Assembly (NCBI RefSeq): GCF_003932895.1
Contig: NZ_RQYW01000003.1
Span: 1-64,000, forward strand
Length of the DNA stretch: 64,000 nucleotides
Source of the DNA: Leptotrichia sp. OH3620_COT-345
GTDB lineage: Bacteria > Fusobacteriota > Fusobacteriia > Fusobacteriales > Leptotrichiaceae
Direction: 5' to 3'
Shown: in pieces, positions 21,926 through 54,349 of the stretch
Numbering within the stretch: position 1 is the first letter of the stretch
Layout: each line of letters opens with the position of its first letter
The notes under the pieces: model-generated
Told to the model about the DNA's origin: nothing
The model's database searches: none
The model's input: only the letters and a program-made list of their open reading frames with translations
Program-made: the position numbers and the translations under genes

Positions 21926-21953
21926 TTGACATTTTTAAATTTTATGTTATAAT
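21926..21953 (+). promoter_or_regulatory. Promoter P1 of cassette A (small RNA)
   Basis: Perfect TTGACA (21926-21931), 16-base spacer ending TGT, perfect TATAAT (21948-21953): a near-consensus extended -10 promoter. Confidence 0.85.
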
Positions 21954-21959
21954 ATTTAT

Positions 21960-22041
21960 GTAACTCCCCCTAAGGAGTTCACTATAAATATAAGTTAAAT
22001 AAATTTGCGGTAAAGAAGACTGGTTTTTTCCAGTCTTTTTT
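21960..22041 (+). ncRNA. Cassette A putative antitoxin small RNA
   Basis: About 82 nt from the P1 start to an intrinsic terminator (GACTGG 22018-22023, loop, CCAGTC 22030-22035, six T). It starts with a hairpin AACTCC/GGAGTT. Bases 21982-21997 are perfectly complementary (16 nt) to 22076-22091 of the downstream peptide mRNA, reaching the first G of its GGAGG. Bases 22004-22010 pair with 22064-22070. Bases 21967-21975 (CCCCTAAGG) complement the mRNA's 3' hairpin at 22176-22184. The layout predicts an antitoxin RNA that blocks ribosome binding in trans. This is inference from sequence; no expression data. Confidence 0.75.
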
Positions 22042-22049
22042 GCTATAAT
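22041..22049 (+). promoter_or_regulatory. Promoter P2 of cassette A (peptide mRNA)
   Basis: An extended -10 element TGCTATAAT directly after the T-run of the small-RNA terminator. The -35 is poor. The same TGnTATAAT stands in cassettes C and D. Confidence 0.65.
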
Positions 22050-22102
22050 ATTTTGAACGAGTTCCGCAAAACTCGTAACTTATATTTATAGGAGGTATAC
22101 AT

Positions 22103-22162
22103 ATGCGTATATTATTTTTGTTTTTAGTATTTTTTTTACTAATTCAAAAAATTTTATACTAA
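22103..22162 (+). CDS. Cassette A 19-residue hydrophobic peptide, putative type I toxin
   Basis: ATG with a strong GGAGGT seven bases upstream encodes MRILFLFLVFFLLIQKILY and a TAA stop. The peptide is one short membrane segment ending in a basic/polar tail, comparable in size with Ibs-type toxins of type I toxin-antitoxin systems, though not recognisably homologous. The mRNA would start near 22056 and end with hairpin CCCC-TTA-GGGG (22174-22184). Its leader around the binding site is the target of the small RNA encoded just upstream on the same strand. All four cassettes encode exactly 19 residues. Confidence 0.75.
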   Translation: MRILFLFLVFFLLIQKILY

Positions 22163-22188
22163 TGTCGCCTCAACCCCTTAGGGGTACG

Positions 22189-22211
22189 CACTCTATATTA
22201 TGTATATAGTG
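22189..22211. repeat. Dispersed 23-bp palindrome (copy 2)
   Basis: Arms CACTCTATA and TATATAGTG. It is directly adjacent to the stop codon of the minus-strand gene ending at 22212 and closes cassette A on the right. Confidence 0.7.
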
Positions 22212-22481
22212 TTATCTTTCCCAATCTTTATCACTGCTTTCTATCCAAAAGTTTTCACTAGTATTTTCCTTTAATACTTCTTCTTTTTGTTTTCCGTGAA
22301 CTTTAAGATATTTAAGCATTTCCATTTCTGTTTCAAAATTTATTCTTTCTTCAATTTCTTCATTTTCTTCACTATAATACAAATGATTTATAAAATATTC
22401 TCCTGATAAATAACTTTTTCCATAATCTAAAATCATATCTGTTTCATTTTCTAAATACATATATTTTCCTTTTAATCCCAT
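22212..22481 (-). CDS. Hypothetical acidic protein with DWER C-terminal tail
   Basis: An 89-residue acidic protein that I do not recognise. It is rich in Glu and Tyr, with no signal peptide or membrane segment. Its last 13 residues, FWIESSDKDWER, closely resemble the ends of the primase-like protein and ArdC encoded next to it. GGAGGAGAT-type binding sequence precedes the ATG. The gene sits between small-RNA cassettes A and B and is bounded by palindromes on both sides. I infer that the tail is a shared signal, possibly for conjugative secretion; what the body does is unknown. Confidence 0.65.
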   Translation of the reverse strand: MGLKGKYMYLENETDMILDYGKSYLSGEYFINHLYYSEENEEIEERINFETEMEMLKYLKVHGKQKEEVLKENTSENFWIESSDKDWER

Positions 22482-22503
22482 TTTTATCTCCTCCTAATTT
22501 TTT

Positions 22504-22526
22504 CACTCTATATTAAATATATAGTG
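22504..22526. repeat. Dispersed 23-bp palindrome (copy 3)
   Basis: Arms CACTCTATATT and AATATATAGTG. Ten bases before the -35 of cassette B, the same spacing as in cassette A. Confidence 0.7.
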
Positions 22527-22535
22527 TTTTATTAT

Positions 22536-22563
22536 TTGACATTTTTAGATTTTATGTTATAAT
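22536..22563 (+). promoter_or_regulatory. Promoter P1 of cassette B (small RNA)
   Basis: TTGACA (22536-22541), 16-base spacer ending TGT, TATAAT (22558-22563). Confidence 0.85.
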
Positions 22564-22569
22564 ACTCGT

Positions 22570-22647
22570 GTAACTCCCCTAAGGAGTTTTACTATAGAAA
22601 AATATGTAAATTTTGCAGATAAGGACTGGATTTTTTCAGTCCTTTTT
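22570..22647 (+). ncRNA. Cassette B putative antitoxin small RNA
   Basis: About 78 nt ending in terminator GGACTG...CAGTCC plus five T (22623-22647). Bases 22595-22606 are complementary (12 nt) to 22680-22691 just before and into the peptide gene's AGGAGG. Bases 22612-22619 (TTTGCAGA) pair with 22666-22673. The 5' hairpin CCCCTAAGG (22576-22584) complements the mRNA 3' hairpin at 22776-22784. The pairing bases differ from cassette A (AGAAAAATATG instead of ATAAATATAAG), yet complementarity inside the cassette is preserved, which is strong evidence for selection on the interaction. Confidence 0.75.
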
Positions 22648-22649
22648 AG

Positions 22650-22655
22650 TATAAT
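22650..22655 (+). promoter_or_regulatory. Promoter P2 of cassette B (peptide mRNA)
   Basis: TATAAT right after the terminator T-run. The extension reads TAG instead of TGn, so this copy may be weaker. Confidence 0.5.
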
Positions 22656-22703
22656 TAATTGGGTTTCTGCAAAGACCTGCATATTTTTCTAGGAGGTATA
22701 CGT

Positions 22704-22763
22704 ATGCATATATTATTTTTGTTTTTAGTATTTTTTTTACTAATTCAAAAGATTTTATACTAA
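22704..22763 (+). CDS. Cassette B 19-residue hydrophobic peptide, putative type I toxin
   Basis: MHILFLFLVFFLLIQKILY, differing from the cassette A peptide only at residue 2. AGGAGGT lies seven bases before the ATG. The mRNA begins near 22662 and ends in the CCCC-TTA-GGGG hairpin (22774-22784). The coding part is almost identical to cassette A, while the untranslated segment that pairs with the small RNA has diverged in step with that RNA. This suggests the two copies are kept functionally separate. Confidence 0.75.
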   Translation: MHILFLFLVFFLLIQKILY

Positions 22764-22788
22764 CGTATCCTCACCCCTTAGGGGTATA

Positions 22789-22809: not shown

Positions 22810-23712
22810 CTATCTTTCCCAATCTTTTTCATCATCTTTTATCCATAAATTTTCTTTTTCAATATTCTTTATCTCTTTTAAATCATCGTTCCAATCTTTA
22901 TTTTTCGATTTTTCTCTATAGATATTTAAATTACTGTATTCTTCTTTTATTACCTTATAAAAATTATCTCCTGCTTCATCATTGTCAGTACATATGTAAA
23001 TACTCTCGATATCTTCAGATAAATAACTTTTAAATATATCGTTTCTAACTCCTGAAATACTTAAAAATCTACTATTTTCTTCTACGTTTCCCTTATTTAA
23101 TTGTAAATAAGACAGTAGATCTATCGCAGCTTCGAAAATATATAAATTTTTTATTTCTTTATTATTTGTTATATTAAATCCGTAATGACTACTAGTATTT
23201 CTTTTAAATTTACTTTCTCCAGTACCTACTAAGTCATAGCCCTGTATTTTATTTCCAATATCCCTGATTGTAAAATTAACATTATCTCTCTCATCTAAAA
23301 AGATAATTTCTTTTTTATATAACGCTTCCACTATCTTTTTATTTATCCCTCTTTTTTCAGATAAATAATTAATTACTTTATTTAAATTATCTTTTTTTAT
23401 TGAAAATCCTTTCACAGAAGTTTTGCTGCTATATACATTACTTTCACTGGGTTTATATTTTTCATTTTTTATATCTTCTAAAAATTCTTCTACCTTTTCA
23501 AATATTTTCCTCCCTTCTATTCCATATAAGTTTTTAAGTAAGTCGTAATAATTCCCTTTTATATTTTTAGAGTTCCAGACAAATAATGAACCGGATAAAA
23601 TAAGGCTATCATGATCTTTTAATTTGTACCTCCGCCTTCCATGAGGAATTAAACTTTCTCCCATATATTCAAGAAGGTCTTTTAAATTTATATCGCTTAA
23701 ATTCGTATTCAT
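22810..23712 (-). CDS. Toprim-domain primase-like protein with DWER tail
   Basis: A 300-residue protein. The C-terminal half has a Toprim fold: conserved Glu in YIFEAAIDLLSYL and the acidic DxDxxG motif in ICTDNDEAGDNF. The N-terminal part (DLLEYMGESLIPHGRRRYKLKDHDSL) resembles the DUF3991/primase-associated domain found in relaxase- and ICE-encoded primase relatives. A primer-synthesis or single-strand maintenance role in transfer is likely. It ends NLWIKDDEKDWER, nearly identical to the end of ArdC, and the last ~46 nucleotides are almost the same in both genes. Attenuator-like leader RNA 1 is immediately upstream. Confidence 0.78.
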   Translation of the reverse strand: MNTNLSDINLKDLLEYMGESLIPHGRRRYKLKDHDSLILSGSLFVWNSKNIKGNYYDLLKNLYGIEGRKIFEKVEEFLEDIKNEKYKPSESNVYSSKTSVKGFSIKKDNLNKVINYLSEKRGINKKIVEALYKKEIIFLDERDNVNFTIRDIGNKIQGYDLVGTGESKFKRNTSSHYGFNITNNKEIKNLYIFEAAIDLLSYLQLNKGNVEENSRFLSISGVRNDIFKSYLSEDIESIYICTDNDEAGDNFYKVIKEEYSNLNIYREKSKNKDWNDDLKEIKNIEKENLWIKDDEKDWER

Positions 23713-24453: not shown

Positions 24454-25434
24454 TTATCTTTCCCAATCCTTTTCATCATCTTTTATCCATAAATTTTCTT
24501 GTTTTTCTTCTAATTTGATATTTTTTAATTGTTCTCTATATGGTTCTAATATATAGTCATTTATTTTTTGTGCTTCTTTTATGGCTTCAAATAATACTCC
24601 GGGATTTTCTTTTAATATGCTATTCCAACTTTTGATGTATGCTGCATTATTTTCAAACTCTTTATCTTCTATTTTCAGTTTAGTTTCTTGTTGTATAAAT
24701 ATTGATGAAAATTCCGCTATTAACTCTTCTTTGGCATAACTTTTATCTCCGAATTTACCAGACATATCCCGATTTAATCTTTTCTTATGTCCTGTTGAAT
24801 GTGCCATTTCATGTAGTGCAATAGAGTATAAATCTTCTATTCTATTAAACTTTTCTTTTTTAGGAAGATGAATACTATCATTAATTAAATTATAAAAAGC
24901 ATTATTTAATTGATCATACTTTATCGACACTTCAAAATTATCAAGGATTTGTTCTATTATCTCATTTCTCTTACTACAATCTATTTGAATTTTTTGATTA
25001 TATTTCTCAATTCCATGTATTTGCTCCGCATTAAACACATTATATTTTTTAGTAATAATATAAATATTTTCTGATAAATATTTACTTTTTTCTTCTTCAG
25101 ACATATTTTTTATAGTTTCATTATTAAATTCCTTTTTTGTATTTTTATCAGTTAATTGATAAAAATACACCGGTGTTGATTTTTCTCCTTTTTTTACTTG
25201 AAAATTGTTTTCTCTAGCTTGATTATAAGTCATCCATCTAGGGTCATTATATCCATTTTTTATTGATGAAATTAACAGTCTTATATTATTAGACCCCTTA
25301 TATTCTTTATTTGATATTGGGTTATTTGGTTCATCTAAACTTCTCCATGTTTTTCTCCAGGATAAGTCTTCTTTTTCTATTAGCTTTATAATATCATTTA
25401 CTAATTCTTGTTTTTCATTACTCAATTTTGCCAT
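24454..25434 (-). CDS. ardC: ArdC-like antirestriction protein with DWER tail
   Basis: A 326-residue ArdC-family protein. The N-terminal single-strand-DNA-binding region shows the family segments LSWRKTWRSL, GSNNIRLLISS and WMTYNQA. It is followed by a zincin-like metallopeptidase domain with HEMAHSTGHKKRL and a later Glu in AKEELIAEF. ArdC proteins shield incoming single-stranded DNA from restriction, and plasmid pSa ArdC is reported to travel with the DNA into the recipient. The C-terminus NLWIKDDEKDWER matches that of the primase-like protein. It follows a 41-codon gene by one base and is likely coupled to it. Confidence 0.85.
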   Translation of the reverse strand: MAKLSNEKQELVNDIIKLIEKEDLSWRKTWRSLDEPNNPISNKEYKGSNNIRLLISSIKNGYNDPRWMTYNQARENNFQVKKGEKSTPVYFYQLTDKNTKKEFNNETIKNMSEEEKSKYLSENIYIITKKYNVFNAEQIHGIEKYNQKIQIDCSKRNEIIEQILDNFEVSIKYDQLNNAFYNLINDSIHLPKKEKFNRIEDLYSIALHEMAHSTGHKKRLNRDMSGKFGDKSYAKEELIAEFSSIFIQQETKLKIEDKEFENNAAYIKSWNSILKENPGVLFEAIKEAQKINDYILEPYREQLKNIKLEEKQENLWIKDDEKDWER

Positions 25435-25607: not shown

Positions 25608-25635
25608 TTGACTTTTTTGTAATTTATGATATAAT
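25608..25635 (+). promoter_or_regulatory. Promoter P1 of cassette C (small RNA)
   Basis: TTGACT (25608-25613), 16-base spacer ending TGA, TATAAT (25630-25635). Confidence 0.8.
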
Positions 25636-25641
25636 ATCAGT

Positions 25642-25716
25642 GTAAATCCCTAAAGGGAACTTATATTAATGATAAAAAATGGTGACAAATCAGACTGGAA
25701 AATACCAGTCTTTTTT
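25642..25716 (+). ncRNA. Cassette C putative antitoxin small RNA
   Basis: About 75 nt with a 5' hairpin TCCC-TAA-AGGGA and terminator GACTGG/CCAGTC plus six T (25693-25716). Bases 25660-25674 are complementary (15 nt) to 25750-25764, covering the start of the peptide gene's AAGGAG. Bases 25680-25685 (TGGTGA) pair with 25740-25745. Only the terminator and general plan are shared with cassettes A and B; the pairing sequences are unrelated but still self-complementary within the cassette. Confidence 0.75.
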
Positions 25717-25724
25717 GTTATAAT
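25716..25724 (+). promoter_or_regulatory. Promoter P2 of cassette C (peptide mRNA)
   Basis: Extended -10 TGTTATAAT at the end of the terminator T-run. Confidence 0.65.
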
Positions 25725-25775
25725 GTTTTTTGAACGAGTTCACCACTCGTATCATTAATATAAGGAGTGATGTCT

Positions 25776-25835
25776 ATGAAGACATTTATTTTTATTTTAG
25801 CAATATTTTTGCTAATTCAGAGGTTCTTGCTCTAA
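25776..25835 (+). CDS. Cassette C 19-residue hydrophobic peptide, putative type I toxin
   Basis: MKTFIFILAIFLLIQRFLL, with AAGGAG nine bases before the ATG. It shares the plan of the A and B peptides, including the LLIQ(K/R) core: a short basic N-terminus, one membrane segment, and a basic residue near the C-terminus. A CCC-TAC-GGGG hairpin follows (25849-25858). The gene is convergent with the minus-strand gene ending at 25886. Confidence 0.72.
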   Translation: MKTFIFILAIFLLIQRFLL

Positions 25836-25885
25836 ATAACTCACTCAACCCTACGGGGTATTATTTACTTCTTATCAACATTTTT

Positions 25886-27065: not shown

Positions 27066-27093
27066 TTGACAATTTTATATTTTATGATATAAT
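27066..27093 (+). promoter_or_regulatory. Promoter P1 of cassette D (small RNA)
   Basis: TTGACA (27066-27071), 16-base spacer ending TGA, TATAAT (27088-27093). Confidence 0.85.
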
Positions 27094-27099
27094 ACTGTC

Positions 27100-27187
27100 A
27101 TAGAAGATTACTCTTCTACCCTTAAGGGAAACTTATAAGAATTTAAAAATACGTTTCAATTAAGACTGGTTTTTCCCAGTCTTTTTT
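27100..27187 (+). ncRNA. Cassette D putative antitoxin small RNA
   Basis: About 88 nt: hairpin TAGAAGA...TCTTCTA, then CCCTTAAGGG, then terminator GACTGG/CCAGTC plus six T (27164-27187). Bases 27132-27147 are complementary (16 nt) to 27216-27231, ending on the first G of the peptide gene's GGAGG. CGTT at 27152-27155 pairs with AACG at 27209-27212. This is the most diverged copy, yet the complementarity sits at the same place relative to both the terminator and the ribosome binding site. Confidence 0.75.
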
Positions 27188-27195
27188 GATATAAT
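27187..27195 (+). promoter_or_regulatory. Promoter P2 of cassette D (peptide mRNA)
   Basis: Extended -10 TGATATAAT directly after the terminator T-run. Confidence 0.65.
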
Positions 27196-27242
27196 TTTTT
27201 TGAGGGGTAACGCCCTTTAAATTCTTATAAGGAGGTAGTAGC

Positions 27243-27302
27243 ATGGAAAATGTTATTACTATTATTGTTATGATGTATATCATATACAGATTAACTAAGT
27301 AG
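27243..27302 (+). CDS. Cassette D 19-residue hydrophobic peptide, putative type I toxin
   Basis: MENVITIIVMMYIIYRLTK, with GGAGGT at eight bases before the ATG. The sequence is unrelated to the A-C peptides except for length and plan: a hydrophobic centre and a basic tail. A CCCTTAGGGG terminator-like hairpin followed by a T-run (27328-27346) ends the message. Confidence 0.72.
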   Translation: MENVITIIVMMYIIYRLTK

Positions 27303-27343
27303 TTTTAATTTTACCTCTACTCCTCAACCCTTAGGGGTATTTT

Positions 27344-28792
27344 TTAAAAACTTATTTCTATTTTATGGATTACTGTATAAATTATAAATATAAGAAATAT
27401 GTATAGTATGAAATTTCCTGTAAGTATTGTCTCTATATCTTTCAATGAATCAACTAAATTTTGAAAAGTATTATTTTCAGATAAAACCTTAATCCCTATA
27501 ATAGCAAAGAAGTTAATTGAAACCAGTTTTAGTATAAAATTTATAATCATACTAAAGATTTTCCCTACATTATAATACTGTCTTGTTTCATCTAATATTC
27601 CGAGAGTAAGAAATATAGGAGATAAACTTAAAGATAATTCAAATCCGATTAATAGTTTAAGCAAATCAAACATAATAAACAGAAAAGCAACATTAATCAG
27701 TACAAATATCACCAGTAATGCTATTGTAACTAACAAATTTTTTTGAAAATCCAAAGGATTTATCCAGTTTATTTTAGTAATAGCTTCAAATACTTCAGAA
27801 GCTAATTTCTCTTTTAATGTCCATATTTCATTCAGCTTTTGAGTCTTTTCACCTGTGAGTTTTTCAAGTATTCCATAGCTTATATCTTTTCCCATTTGAA
27901 TTAACTCACCGCTAAATATCTTATTAGTTATAAAAATATAAAATACAAATCCGAAAGTTCTTTTAAAAATAGTTCCTGAAATAAATCCTTTAATATTATT
28001 ATCAGCAATAGCAAAAATGGAATCTTTTATAACTTGAATTATAAAGAAAGTAGTCATAATGAAAATAAATATATTCCCTATGTTCCCAAAATTATCAAGC
28101 CCTTCTTTGAGAAATCCCATAATGTTATCCGCAAATGTGTCCCAGTCCATTTTATTTGAAGGTTCGTATTGAATATTCACAGTATCTTGTGAAGCTGTAC
28201 CATAAGCATTTGTGCTGATACTTGAACCATTTGGTGGAACAACTACTTGTCCGATTGAATTAATTGGTGTGTATCCATTGTTTATCAATATTTGTGTTGC
28301 ACTGGTTGCTCCAATATACGAACCTCCTCTATAAGTTCTTACATCTATAATATCAATCACTGTTCCTCTCGAACTGGAAGCATGAGCCATCTTAAATTTT
28401 CCATTTCCCAAATTTTCAAGTACAATTCCCACATGTCCATACCCTTTACTTCCTTGAGCTCCAAAATTTAAAAGATCTCCGGGTTTTATCTGATCAAATG
28501 AAGTTCTTTTTACTTGTCCAGCTCCTCTTATTCCGGCAGTCGTAGTTGAGGCACCACCTTTACCAGTGACTCCTCCGTTCATTCCTGCAGCTGCGGTTGC
28601 TCTTCCCACATATGAGGAACAATCAAAATATCCCCCCCTCATTCTATATTGATTGCTATAAGGTCTATTCAAATTATTAACTGCATAATTTATTATATCT
28701 TGTCTAAATTTTGTATCATCATAATTCCCTTTATTTGCAAACGATAAAATACTTAAACAGATAAAACTGAATATCATTATTATTTTTCTCAT
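27344..28792 (-). CDS. NlpC/P60 hydrolase fused to a TrbL/VirB6-like membrane domain
   Basis: A 482-residue protein starting at the ATG at 28790-28792; a longer reading frame upstream runs through the structured leader and is not credible. Signal peptide at residues 1-19. Residues 25-160 form an NlpC/P60 domain with Cys58 in YFDCSSYVGRA, His120 in GYGHVGIV and His137. After a linker, residues ~230-480 hold six or so membrane segments like those of VirB6/TrbL inner-membrane channel proteins. The fusion would tether a wall hydrolase to the secretion channel. Leader RNA 2 lies immediately upstream. Confidence 0.75.
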   Translation of the reverse strand: MRKIIMIFSFICLSILSFANKGNYDDTKFRQDIINYAVNNLNRPYSNQYRMRGGYFDCSSYVGRATAAAGMNGGVTGKGGASTTTAGIRGAGQVKRTSFDQIKPGDLLNFGAQGSKGYGHVGIVLENLGNGKFKMAHASSSRGTVIDIIDVRTYRGGSYIGATSATQILINNGYTPINSIGQVVVPPNGSSISTNAYGTASQDTVNIQYEPSNKMDWDTFADNIMGFLKEGLDNFGNIGNIFIFIMTTFFIIQVIKDSIFAIADNNIKGFISGTIFKRTFGFVFYIFITNKIFSGELIQMGKDISYGILEKLTGEKTQKLNEIWTLKEKLASEVFEAITKINWINPLDFQKNLLVTIALLVIFVLINVAFLFIMFDLLKLLIGFELSLSLSPIFLTLGILDETRQYYNVGKIFSMIINFILKLVSINFFAIIGIKVLSENNTFQNLVDSLKDIETILTGNFILYIFLIFIIYTVIHKIEISF

Positions 28793-37408: not shown

Positions 37409-38080
37409 TCATCTTTCTTTTTCTTCGGTTTCAGTTTCATTTTCCCAGAAATGTTTCTCTTTATCTTCTTTAAAAGAAAATAATTCATATTTTTTTGTTT
37501 TGTCATTATATTTTGAAATTTCAGTGATTTTTTCAAATATTCTGCTGTTTTCAAAATAATTTATATCTTCCCTTGCAAAATAAGTTTCCAGTATATCCTT
37601 CGTTCTATTATCAACTTCAAATTCTGTTATTATATCTCCGTATTCTTCTTTTCTTATTCCTAAATGAAGAAACTGATTATTTTTTGTCTGAACAACTAAG
37701 TAATTACTTTTTATTTGAGTATATTGATTCGTCTGTTCAAAAATATATCCATTTTCCAAATTTTCCATAAATTCTTTGAAAGTATTAATTCTGTTGGCTA
37801 CACTATCAATCTTATTTGCATTATGTTCAGCTATTAAATCATATATATCCTGATCGGATAGATTTTCTTCATTTATTTTGTTATATAATCTTTGACCTTT
37901 TAGCACTCCATGTTTACTTTCATTATCATTGATATACTGTAATCCTAATAAATGAGGAAGAGATTTATTGTTTATTTCTATAAAAAATTCCTTACTTTTA
38001 CTTTTTATGCATATATCTTCCTTGTCATATTTGGAAAACCATTTAAATATCTCCTGAACCTTGTAAGATTGCTCTCTCAT
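37409..38080 (-). CDS. Unknown protein, possible PBECR-type nuclease-like domain, EEKER tail
   Basis: A 223-residue protein starting at the ATG at 38080 behind GGAGGTAAAA. The N-terminal half contains LPHLLGLQYIN and HGVLKGQRLYNKI, which recall phage PBECR (Barnase/EndoU/ColicinE5-D/RelE-like) domains; this is a tentative resemblance from memory. No signal peptide. It ends FWENETETEEKER, like the 38654-39337 product (DWENEAETEEKER). If the tail is a secretion signal, this could be a toxin-like protein sent to recipients or competitors. No immunity gene is evident, unless it is 38130-38531 just upstream. Confidence 0.5.
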   Translation of the reverse strand: MREQSYKVQEIFKWFSKYDKEDICIKSKSKEFFIEINNKSLPHLLGLQYINDNESKHGVLKGQRLYNKINEENLSDQDIYDLIAEHNANKIDSVANRINTFKEFMENLENGYIFEQTNQYTQIKSNYLVVQTKNNQFLHLGIRKEEYGDIITEFEVDNRTKDILETYFAREDINYFENSRIFEKITEISKYNDKTKKYELFSFKEDKEKHFWENETETEEKER

Positions 38081-38094
38081 TTTTACCTCCAAGT

Positions 38095-38653: not shown

Positions 38654-39337
38654 TTATCTCTCCTTTTCTTCAGTTTCAGCTTCATTTTCCCAATCTGAAT
38701 TTTCTTTTTCCTTGTTTTCTTTTATATGTTGTTTAACTTCTTCTCTTTTCAAAACCTTATTCAAAATATCACCTCTATCAATTAATATAAACTTTTCTTC
38801 ATTATCTTTTTCTTTTGATATTTTTGTTGTAAACAGTACTTTATTTACTGTCAGCTCTTTCTGTGCTTCCAGAAAATCCTTAAAGTTTAATTTAGAAGCC
38901 TTTCTCACCGTTTTTGAATCAAGATATACAAGTTCACCTAAATTTTCTTTATATGTGCTATAAATCAATTTTGCATTATCGGATAAAGTGTTTAATTTAT
39001 CCTCTTTAACTTTTTCAATCTCTTCTCTTCTAGCCAGTATTTCCGCCTCTTTTTCTTCGTATTTATTTTTATAGTCAACTGCCTTGTTCTTATCTATAAA
39101 GTATTTCATTTTGGGCATTTCAAATACTGAACCGTCATAATTTATTTTTGCCTCTACAGATTGATGAAAAAATATTTTATTCTCCTGAACTAATTCCTTA
39201 AATGCCGTTTTAAATTTTTCGTCATCATTGATTCCCATTTTATCCTGTATCTGACTTCTGTTTAATGAAGTATACCCGATTTCATTATTTGTCTTTTCTT
39301 CTAAAAATTTCATAATCTGATCTTTCATTTTCATCAT
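38654..39337 (-). CDS. Winged-helix-like protein with EEKER tail
   Basis: A 227-residue charged protein. Residues ~1-75 (DQIMKFLEEKTNNEIGYTSL, then RSQIQDKMGINDDEKFKTAFKEL) look like a winged-helix domain, and a second similar unit follows near residue 120 (KLIYSTYKENLGELVYLDSK) after a coiled-coil linker. It ends SDWENEAETEEKER, sharing the acidic, tryptophan-containing tail of the 37409-38080 product. The start could be ATG codon 1, 2 or 4. A DNA-binding role at the transfer origin or in the recipient is a guess. Confidence 0.55.
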   Translation of the reverse strand: MMKMKDQIMKFLEEKTNNEIGYTSLNRSQIQDKMGINDDEKFKTAFKELVQENKIFFHQSVEAKINYDGSVFEMPKMKYFIDKNKAVDYKNKYEEKEAEILARREEIEKVKEDKLNTLSDNAKLIYSTYKENLGELVYLDSKTVRKASKLNFKDFLEAQKELTVNKVLFTTKISKEKDNEEKFILIDRGDILNKVLKREEVKQHIKENKEKENSDWENEAETEEKER

Positions 39338-50340: not shown

Positions 50341-50426
50341 TTGATTTTTTTAAATTTTATGTTATAATCAAAATATAGTTTTAAAACTATACCCACAGCC
50401 TCTGTGGGCTTTTATTATGCTATAAA
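50341..50426 (+). ncRNA. Degenerate small-RNA cassette E (P1, terminator and P2 without peptide gene)
   Basis: TTGATT (50341-50346), 16-base spacer ending TGT, TATAAT (50363-50368) matches the P1 of cassettes A and B base for base over most of its length. A ~40-nt RNA then ends in terminator CCCACAG-CCT-CTGTGGG plus T-rich tail (50392-50413), followed by an extended -10 TGCTATAAA (50418-50426) in the P2 position. No plus-strand peptide gene with a ribosome binding site follows, so this looks like a fifth cassette that lost its toxin, or an orphan RNA. Confidence 0.55.
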
Positions 50427-53998: not shown

Positions 53999-54349
53999 AT
54001 GGATAAGCATATAGGACTAAAAATTTTAAGATTAAGAGAAAATAAAAAATTAAGTCAACAACAATTGGCAAAAAAATTATCAGTAAAACCACAAACAATA
54101 TATAAATATGAAAACGGAATTATAAAAAATATAAAATATGAAACTATTGAAAAATTAGCTAAAATTTTCAATGTTTCTCCGCAATATCTTTTAGGACTGG
54201 ATGATGAAGAAAATATTGTTCCTACAAAAGAGGAATTGGAAAGAGGAAGTATGCTTTTTTATCAAAATAAAAAAATTTCTGATGAAGATAAAGACGAGCT
54301 ATTTAAAAAAATTCAGGAATATTATTTTAAAGAGCGATTAAAAAAATAA
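53999..54349 (+). CDS. XRE-family repressor (ImmR-like)
   Basis: A 116-residue protein. The N-terminal Cro/C1 helix-turn-helix is IGLKILRLRENKKLSQQQLA then KKLSVKPQTIYKYENGI; the C-terminal part (DEDKDELFKKIQEYYFKERL) is probably for dimerisation. GAAAAGGAGAAAAAT precedes the ATG. Divergent from the small HTH gene and followed by a broken ImmA-type peptidase gene, the ImmR-ImmA order of ICEBs1. I infer that it represses the element through the AACTT-N3-AAGTT sites. Confidence 0.8.
   Translation: MDKHIGLKILRLRENKKLSQQQLAKKLSVKPQTIYKYENGIIKNIKYETIEKLAKIFNVSPQYLLGLDDEENIVPTKEELERGSMLFYQNKKISDEDKDELFKKIQEYYFKERLKK

Follow-up and report, generated by a model that had tools for sequence, protein, structure and literature searches.

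A 64,000-nucleotide stretch of DNA from Leptotrichia sp. OH3620_COT-345 (contig C3 of a 2.5-Mb genome; hereafter the window) carries two short cassettes, A and B, whose peptides are almost the same but whose surrounding RNAs differ. An initial annotation read them as identical toxins with deliberately different RNA targets. This raises the question of what these cassettes are, and how near-identical peptides came to be addressed by different small RNAs (sRNAs). We analyzed A and B together with two relatives in the window, C and D, and then across the Leptotrichiaceae.

Layout of the four cassettes

The window contains an integrative conjugative element (ICE) encoding an integrase, VirB4, VirD4 and VirB11-type proteins, a MobA/MobL relaxase, a topoisomerase and ArdC. 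Cassettes A (~21926-22184), B (22536-22786), C (25608-25866) and D (27066-27345) are all on the + strand, whereas the adjoining ICE genes are on the other, and have one layout in common: sRNA promoter, sRNA, terminator and toxin promoter, all on the same strand. Each begins with a promoter (TTGAC, 16-17 nt, TATAAT), followed by an sRNA with a 5' hairpin and an intrinsic terminator. Straight after the terminator comes the extended -10 of a second transcript, then a 5' hairpin and a Shine-Dalgarno (SD) sequence, and the distal part consists of a hydrophobic ORF of 19 codons followed by a 3' C/G hairpin.

In cassette A, the sRNA promoter (TTGACA, 16 nt, TATAAT; 21926-21953) was recognized by sequence and is kept across the family. 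Folding and pairing place the predicted antitoxin sRNA, with predicted ends, at 21960-22042, comprising a 5' hairpin (21962-21979), seed2 (~21981-21996), seed1 (22004-22010) and the terminator (22018-22041). The extended -10 of the toxin mRNA (TGCTATAAT, 22044-22049) abuts this terminator, and its TATAAT is kept in the family alignment. The mRNA opens with a 5' hairpin (22057-22076), placed by folding and pairing, whose loop CCGCAA (22064-22069) is the seed1 target; target2 (22077-22091) is single-stranded in the mRNA fold and overlaps the start of the SD (22090-22095). The toxin-like ORF MRILFLFLVFFLLIQKILY (22103-22162; subfamily pN/pS 0.51) is followed by a 3' UTR (22163-22184) with an anti-SD and a CCCCTTAGGGG hairpin, and in the full-length fold the SD is sequestered.

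Cassette B repeats this order. Its sRNA promoter (22536-22563) and toxin-mRNA -10 (22650-22655) were assigned by sequence; the predicted antitoxin sRNA (22570-22647; seed2 ~22593-22608, seed1 22611-22618, terminator 22623-22647), the mRNA 5' hairpin (22661-22678; loop CTGCAA, 22667-22672, as seed1 target) and target2 (22679-22692), which adjoins the SD (22691-22696), were assigned by folding and pairing. The ORF MHILFLFLVFFLLIQKILY (22704-22763) is followed by a 3' UTR (22764-22786), in which the fold pairs CGTATCCTC with the SD-to-ATG region, and again by the CCCCTTAGGGG hairpin. Neither this hairpin nor that of A has a clear U-run, so the 3' ends of both mRNAs are uncertain. Cassette C comprises an sRNA promoter (25608-25635), sRNA (~25642-25716), mRNA -10 (25719-25724), hairpin (25734-25750), ORF MKTFIFILAIFLLIQRFLL (25776-25835) and 3' hairpin, and cassette D an sRNA promoter (27066-27093), sRNA (~27100-27188), mRNA -10 (27190-27195), ORF MENVITIIVMMYIIYRLTK (27243-27302) and terminator.

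Several other features of the window were recorded. An operator-like palindrome, CACTCTATAnTnAnTATAkAGTG, occurs at about ten places in the ICE (21894, 22189, 22504, 22789, 24430, 25575, 37294, 37339, 38628 and 40678), with none expected in shuffles, and it flanks cassettes A-C as well. It looks like a binding site for an ICE regulator, for which the HTH protein at 53999-54349 is a candidate. Several ICE proteins that are otherwise different (22212-22481, 22810-23712, 24454-25434, and also 37409-38092 and 38654-39337) resemble one another in their C-terminal tails (...NLWIKDDEKDWER, ...FWIESSDKDWER, ...WENEAETEEKER), which may be a common signal for secretion or targeting. Lone promoter- or terminator-like pieces that resemble the cassette but have no toxin lie at 50341-50368 and, elsewhere, at G000:C20:24623; they may be relics or chance matches. 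A search with tRNA 3' ends for an ICE attachment repeat matched only the tRNA itself.

Cognate pairing at two contacts

As the initial annotation stated, the A and B peptides are hydrophobic 19-mers one residue apart (R2H), and their coding DNA agrees at 58 of 60 nt. The two 11-mers that it had quoted as matching segments are indeed parts of the sRNAs (ATAAATATAAG in A, ~21984-21994; AGAAAAATATG in B, ~22597-22607), and the reverse complement of each lies just 5' of its own cassette's SD. Its expectation that only cognate pairs match well was borne out. RNAduplex energies between sRNA and leader were -29.4 kcal/mol for A/A and -27.7 kcal/mol for B/B, but -10.6 for sRNA-B on A and -12.3 for sRNA-A on B. 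Over all 16 combinations in the window, the 4x4 matrix was diagonal with both RNAduplex and full-length RNAcofold, and predicted cognate and non-cognate affinities were clearly unequal. Cassettes C and D obeyed the same cognate-only rule: RNAduplex gave -29.4, -27.7, -25.1 and -23.0 for the cognate pairs A-D and -5.2 to -12.3 for the twelve non-cognate ones, and RNAcofold gave -21.1, -20.2, -14.6 and -19.4 against -1.9 to -10.5 (A/B crossed, -9.2 and -6.7). Among 2000 dinucleotide shuffles of each sRNA segment, the cognate energy was attained 0, 0, 0 and 19 times for A, B, C and D, respectively. All such energies leave out kinetics and protein factors.

The sRNA contacts the mRNA at two places, the 5' hairpin loop (seed1) and a single-stranded stretch reaching the SD (seed2), a pattern that recurs across the family; the pairing is predicted to overlap the start of the SD. 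At seed1, the loops CCGCAA (A) and CTGCAA (B) pair with TTTGCGG and TTTTGCAG of the respective sRNAs, and the energies (cognate, -9.9 for A and -10.6 for B; crossed, -6.9 and -7.7) make this contact partly cross-compatible. Seed2 separates the pairs far more sharply (cognate, -17.6 and -14.3; crossed, -5.8 and -3.0). Because the loop contact is partly shared, discrimination between A and B rests on seed2, the segment quoted in the annotation. When partners were chosen as best in genome by a single contact, seed2 sufficed for 39 of 39 parsed leaders and seed1 for 32 of 39.

The difference between A and B extends beyond the 11-mers. The promoter (88% identity), SD and spacer (92%), SD and coding sequence (92-97%) and mRNA 3' hairpin (100%) are conserved, whereas the whole sRNA core with its seeds and the 5' leader are only 50-67% identical, which rules out simple point changes in the 11-mers.

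In the MFE fold of each of the four mRNAs, the 3' UTR pairs with the SD, and the hairpin loop and target2 remain open. Among 35 relatives, the SD was predicted to be buried in 31 full-length folds compared with 8 without the 3' UTR, and its mean unpaired probability was 0.13 at full length, 0.47 without the 3' UTR and 0.25 with a shuffled 3' UTR. Because a shuffled 3' UTR hides part of the SD as well, this predicted element is less certain than the sRNA pairing. The two sides co-vary (GGAGTGA with TCACTC in C; GAGGTATACG with CGTATCCTC in B), and pairing of each TIR with its own 3' UTR averaged -13.2, compared with -11.7 for permuted partners (minimum of 5000, -12.7), in a permutation that ignores relatedness. 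The predicted fold resembles the hok and AapA mRNAs, which require 3' processing before translation (PMC6733600).

The family in Leptotrichiaceae and partnership in trans

About 60 copies of the module occur in Leptotrichiaceae (Leptotrichia and Sebaldella). By blastn, cassettes were present in 17 of 33 Leptotrichiaceae genomes and in 0 of 65 other Fusobacteriia genomes. We parsed 39 toxin leaders from 15 genomes and 56 sRNAs. Every leader had a strong best-in-genome sRNA (-17.0 to -29.4, mean -23.2; within-genome non-cognate mean, -9.9), and the partner was the adjacent sRNA in 35 of 38 cases (permutation mean 11.2, maximum 24 in 20,000 permutations). sRNA and toxin were co-directional in all parsed cassettes. 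The parser probably miscalled the start codon of G017 603981. The peptides, 19-21 aa and almost wholly hydrophobic, had pN/pS values of 0.23-0.51, indicating that they are translated and constrained.

A covariance model of the terminator-to-start region, built without seed2, located diverged copies in the Sebaldella-type genus g9, whose genomes had no part in forming the pairing rule and served as a held-out test. There, the own pair ranked first in 17 of 21 cases, and a further plasmid copy joined them after a corrected parse; among the g9 copies, G023:C96 had no good partner in the search, and G024:C6 pairs only weakly (-11.7). Six cassettes of Sebaldella termitidis ATCC 33386, a g9 genome, gave cognate energies of -26.0 to -31.2 and a strongest off-diagonal value of -15.3. 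Both plasmids of this strain, NC_013518 and NC_013519, carry one cassette each; these plasmid copies were too diverged for blastn and were found by the RNA model. Location on an ICE and on both plasmids agrees with the annotation's expectation of an addiction module. Many copies are nevertheless chromosomal and syntenic, so mobile-element maintenance cannot be the role of every copy.

Database searches returned no family match for five 20-21 aa members (Pfam, NCBIfam, PADLOC) or for six loci (Rfam, where two sub-threshold mir-2558 matches were dismissed). Cassette A had no blastn match in plasmids and phages, and a pattern scan of IMG/VR gave no match. Pattern matches in Lactobacillus, Clostridia and Flavobacterium were unrelated terminators with flanks lacking a cassette, and RNA-model matches outside Leptotrichiaceae (E ~1e-4) were taken as chance terminators.

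Four leaders had a non-adjacent partner. Two of them form a reciprocal swap in G016, where leaders 581282 and 583103 pair with each other's sRNA (-24.0/-27.4) rather than with the adjacent one (-11.2/-10.0); both seeds match the other cassette's leader. The array concerned (L184, G016:C1:580400-584200) holds three tandem cassettes, with an apparent IS transposase ORF between the swapped two. The other two leaders, G013 1944372 and G003 16011, are partnered by relic sRNAs (1944540 and 15569, respectively). The reciprocal swap is strong evidence for action in trans. Since leaders in G016, G013 and G003 are served by another cassette's sRNA, the pairing partner lies in trans and immunity is kept at the level of the genome. 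G016 and G013 are counterexamples to a general rule, stated in the annotation, that every copy has to hold by itself. In addition, sRNAs have been retained at loci where the toxin is missing or has a changed start codon (G007 548403, G009:C63, G011 599696, G021 1022700 and G009:C49).

Two loci merit separate mention. Across Leptotrichia species, a typA/BipA-like gene is preceded by a conserved cassette locus (L066, L067, L068, L069, L064, L070, L081, L026, L027, L028), three of these being antitoxin-only relics that have lost the toxin and retained the sRNA (L026, L027, L028). L173 (G013:C1:1942400-1945300, - strand) comprises six or more cassettes or relics in tandem, which have 21-aa toxins and differ in their codes.

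Origin of the codes and nature of the module

The annotation attributed the A/B difference to selection for non-cross-reacting antitoxins after duplication. Its premise, cognate-only pairing, stands; selection is one candidate cause. We sought such selection as weaker non-cognate energies within than between genomes and found no difference: the within-genome mean (-9.9) equals the between-genome background without orthologue-like pairs (-10.1), that is, it sits at the random floor. An account to which we give about even odds, and which is compatible with a type I-like family, is that the difference arose by recombinational import of a whole block of sRNA core plus leader, or by neutral co-drift of sRNA and target. 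The floor-level energies favor it, as do the contiguity of the divergent block, which runs from seed2 to target2 between a conserved promoter and a conserved SD and coding sequence, and the orthologous locus upstream of typA, where Leptotrichia species with 90-98% identical toxin coding sequences carry several differing codes; the G016 swap demonstrates that exchange between cassettes happens. Against it, near-identical toxins (coding sequence ≥90%) cross-matched in 0 of 6 co-resident pairs, compared with 0.27-0.33 of 48 between-genome pairs, which is the direction predicted by cross-talk selection but in numbers too small to decide. Block recombination or co-drift accounts for the code difference as well as cross-talk selection does. 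More tentatively, and with somewhat less than even probability, the family may be an evolving RNA address code, in which a conserved killer peptide is combined with an sRNA-plus-target block that is exchanged or invented anew as a whole. Plasmid, ICE and chromosomal copies would then be mutually non-neutralising, like incompatibility groups, and immunity would be held by the genome, as the reciprocal swap suggests, and not cassette by cassette.

The cassettes have a common anatomy, complementarity that is confined to cognate pairs, co-variation throughout the family, constraint on the protein, a predicted sequestration of the SD and, at four loci, a partner in trans. We propose that A-D probably belong to a type I-like toxin-antitoxin family of Fusobacteriota that has not been described before, the toxin label being given by resemblance and context. 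As in type I systems, an RNA is complementary to the toxin mRNA, cognate-only in the window and in the family, and the protein is small (<60 aa; here 19-21 aa) and hydrophobic. We infer transcription, toxicity, a translation block and an addiction role, which would operate as follows. In a cassette of ~280 bp, the first promoter would make an sRNA of ~80 nt. The second, which has the same orientation and comes right after the sRNA terminator, would make the mRNA for a hydrophobic peptide of 19-21 aa, presumably a membrane toxin. In the full-length mRNA, the 3' UTR would hide the SD by forming a helix with it and leave the 5' hairpin loop and the single-stranded pre-SD stretch exposed, and sRNA binding at both sites would block ribosome entry, trigger cleavage, or both. 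Upon loss of the cassette, the unstable sRNA would decay and leftover mRNA would be translated. With both sRNA segments and their targets changing together around a constant peptide, co-resident cassettes would not silence each other.

That the peptide is instead a non-toxic small membrane peptide under a specific sRNA switch appears improbable. Its toxicity is deduced by analogy, and many copies are chromosomal, with a conserved position beside typA; however, antitoxin-only relics in which the sRNA outlives the toxin or its start codon, as in zor/orz with its orphan antitoxins (PMC11264685), tandem multicopy arrays, plasmid and ICE locations, and the resemblance of the hydrophobic 19-mers to known type I toxins all argue against it. 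That the sRNA region is merely the first part of a read-through leader attenuating the toxin mRNA in cis is very unlikely: the parts are adjacent on one strand with the toxin -10 directly after the terminator, but the strong terminator and the separate extended -10 (TATAAT) are conserved across the family, and cis pairing cannot account for G016, G013 and G003, where a different cassette holds the matching segment.

Compared with known systems, the type I-like family proposed here follows the same principle as zor/orz of E. coli O157:H7 (ZorO/OrzO, ZorP/OrzP), in which a short variable segment (V1) sets specificity, OrzP does not silence zorO, the segment has been proposed to prevent crosstalk, the pairing region varies across loci and orphan antitoxins are reported (PMC3919570, PMC11264685). 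Both have duplicated near-identical small hydrophobic toxins and an adjacent sRNA of limited complementarity to the toxin mRNA, and in both a short variable segment decides specificity, the pairing region varies and orphan antitoxins occur. zor/orz genes, however, are divergent with one 18-nt contact, whereas the cassettes are co-directional in every parsed case, have two contacts (hairpin loop and pre-SD) and many more codes, and belong to another phylum; they gave no Rfam, Pfam or NCBIfam match, and no known family was recognized. In AapA/IsoA of Helicobacter pylori, a long-distance anti-SD interaction of the 3' end renders the full-length mRNA inert, several copies occur per genome, and antitoxins are strictly module-specific (PMC6733600). 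The cassettes share multiple copies, module specificity and, by prediction, RBS sequestration by a 3' UTR anti-SD, but IsoA is a cis-overlapping antisense RNA from the opposite strand, whereas the cassette sRNA has limited complementarity and comes from an upstream gene on the toxin strand. TisB/IstR-1 of E. coli likewise has an adjacent sRNA of limited complementarity, and there the sRNA and ribosomes compete for a standby site that precedes a structured RBS (PMC8167048), but the system is SOS-regulated and laid out differently. Clostridioides difficile also carries several homologous type I modules per genome with mostly cognate-only antitoxins (PMC6563280), in antisense-overlapping gene pairs, unlike the non-overlapping, same-strand cassettes. 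A parallel orientation has been mentioned as possible for type I systems in a review (PMC8167048).

According to a 2025 paper, Proteobacteria, Firmicutes and Tenericutes were the only phyla with known type I systems, to which it added Cyanobacteria (PMC12390103); in the literature that we searched there was no report of one in Fusobacteriota, and the cassette family would add this phylum. The novel elements are the family itself and its phylum, the tandem arrangement of co-directional genes with two contacts, the extent to which codes turn over, and the reciprocal swap. With orphan antitoxins, a reciprocal swap that arose in nature and dozens of codes, the roughly 60 cassettes form a rare data set on how an sRNA and its target can switch specificity together without killing the cell, and the cassettes supply ready-made orthogonal sRNA/target pairs.
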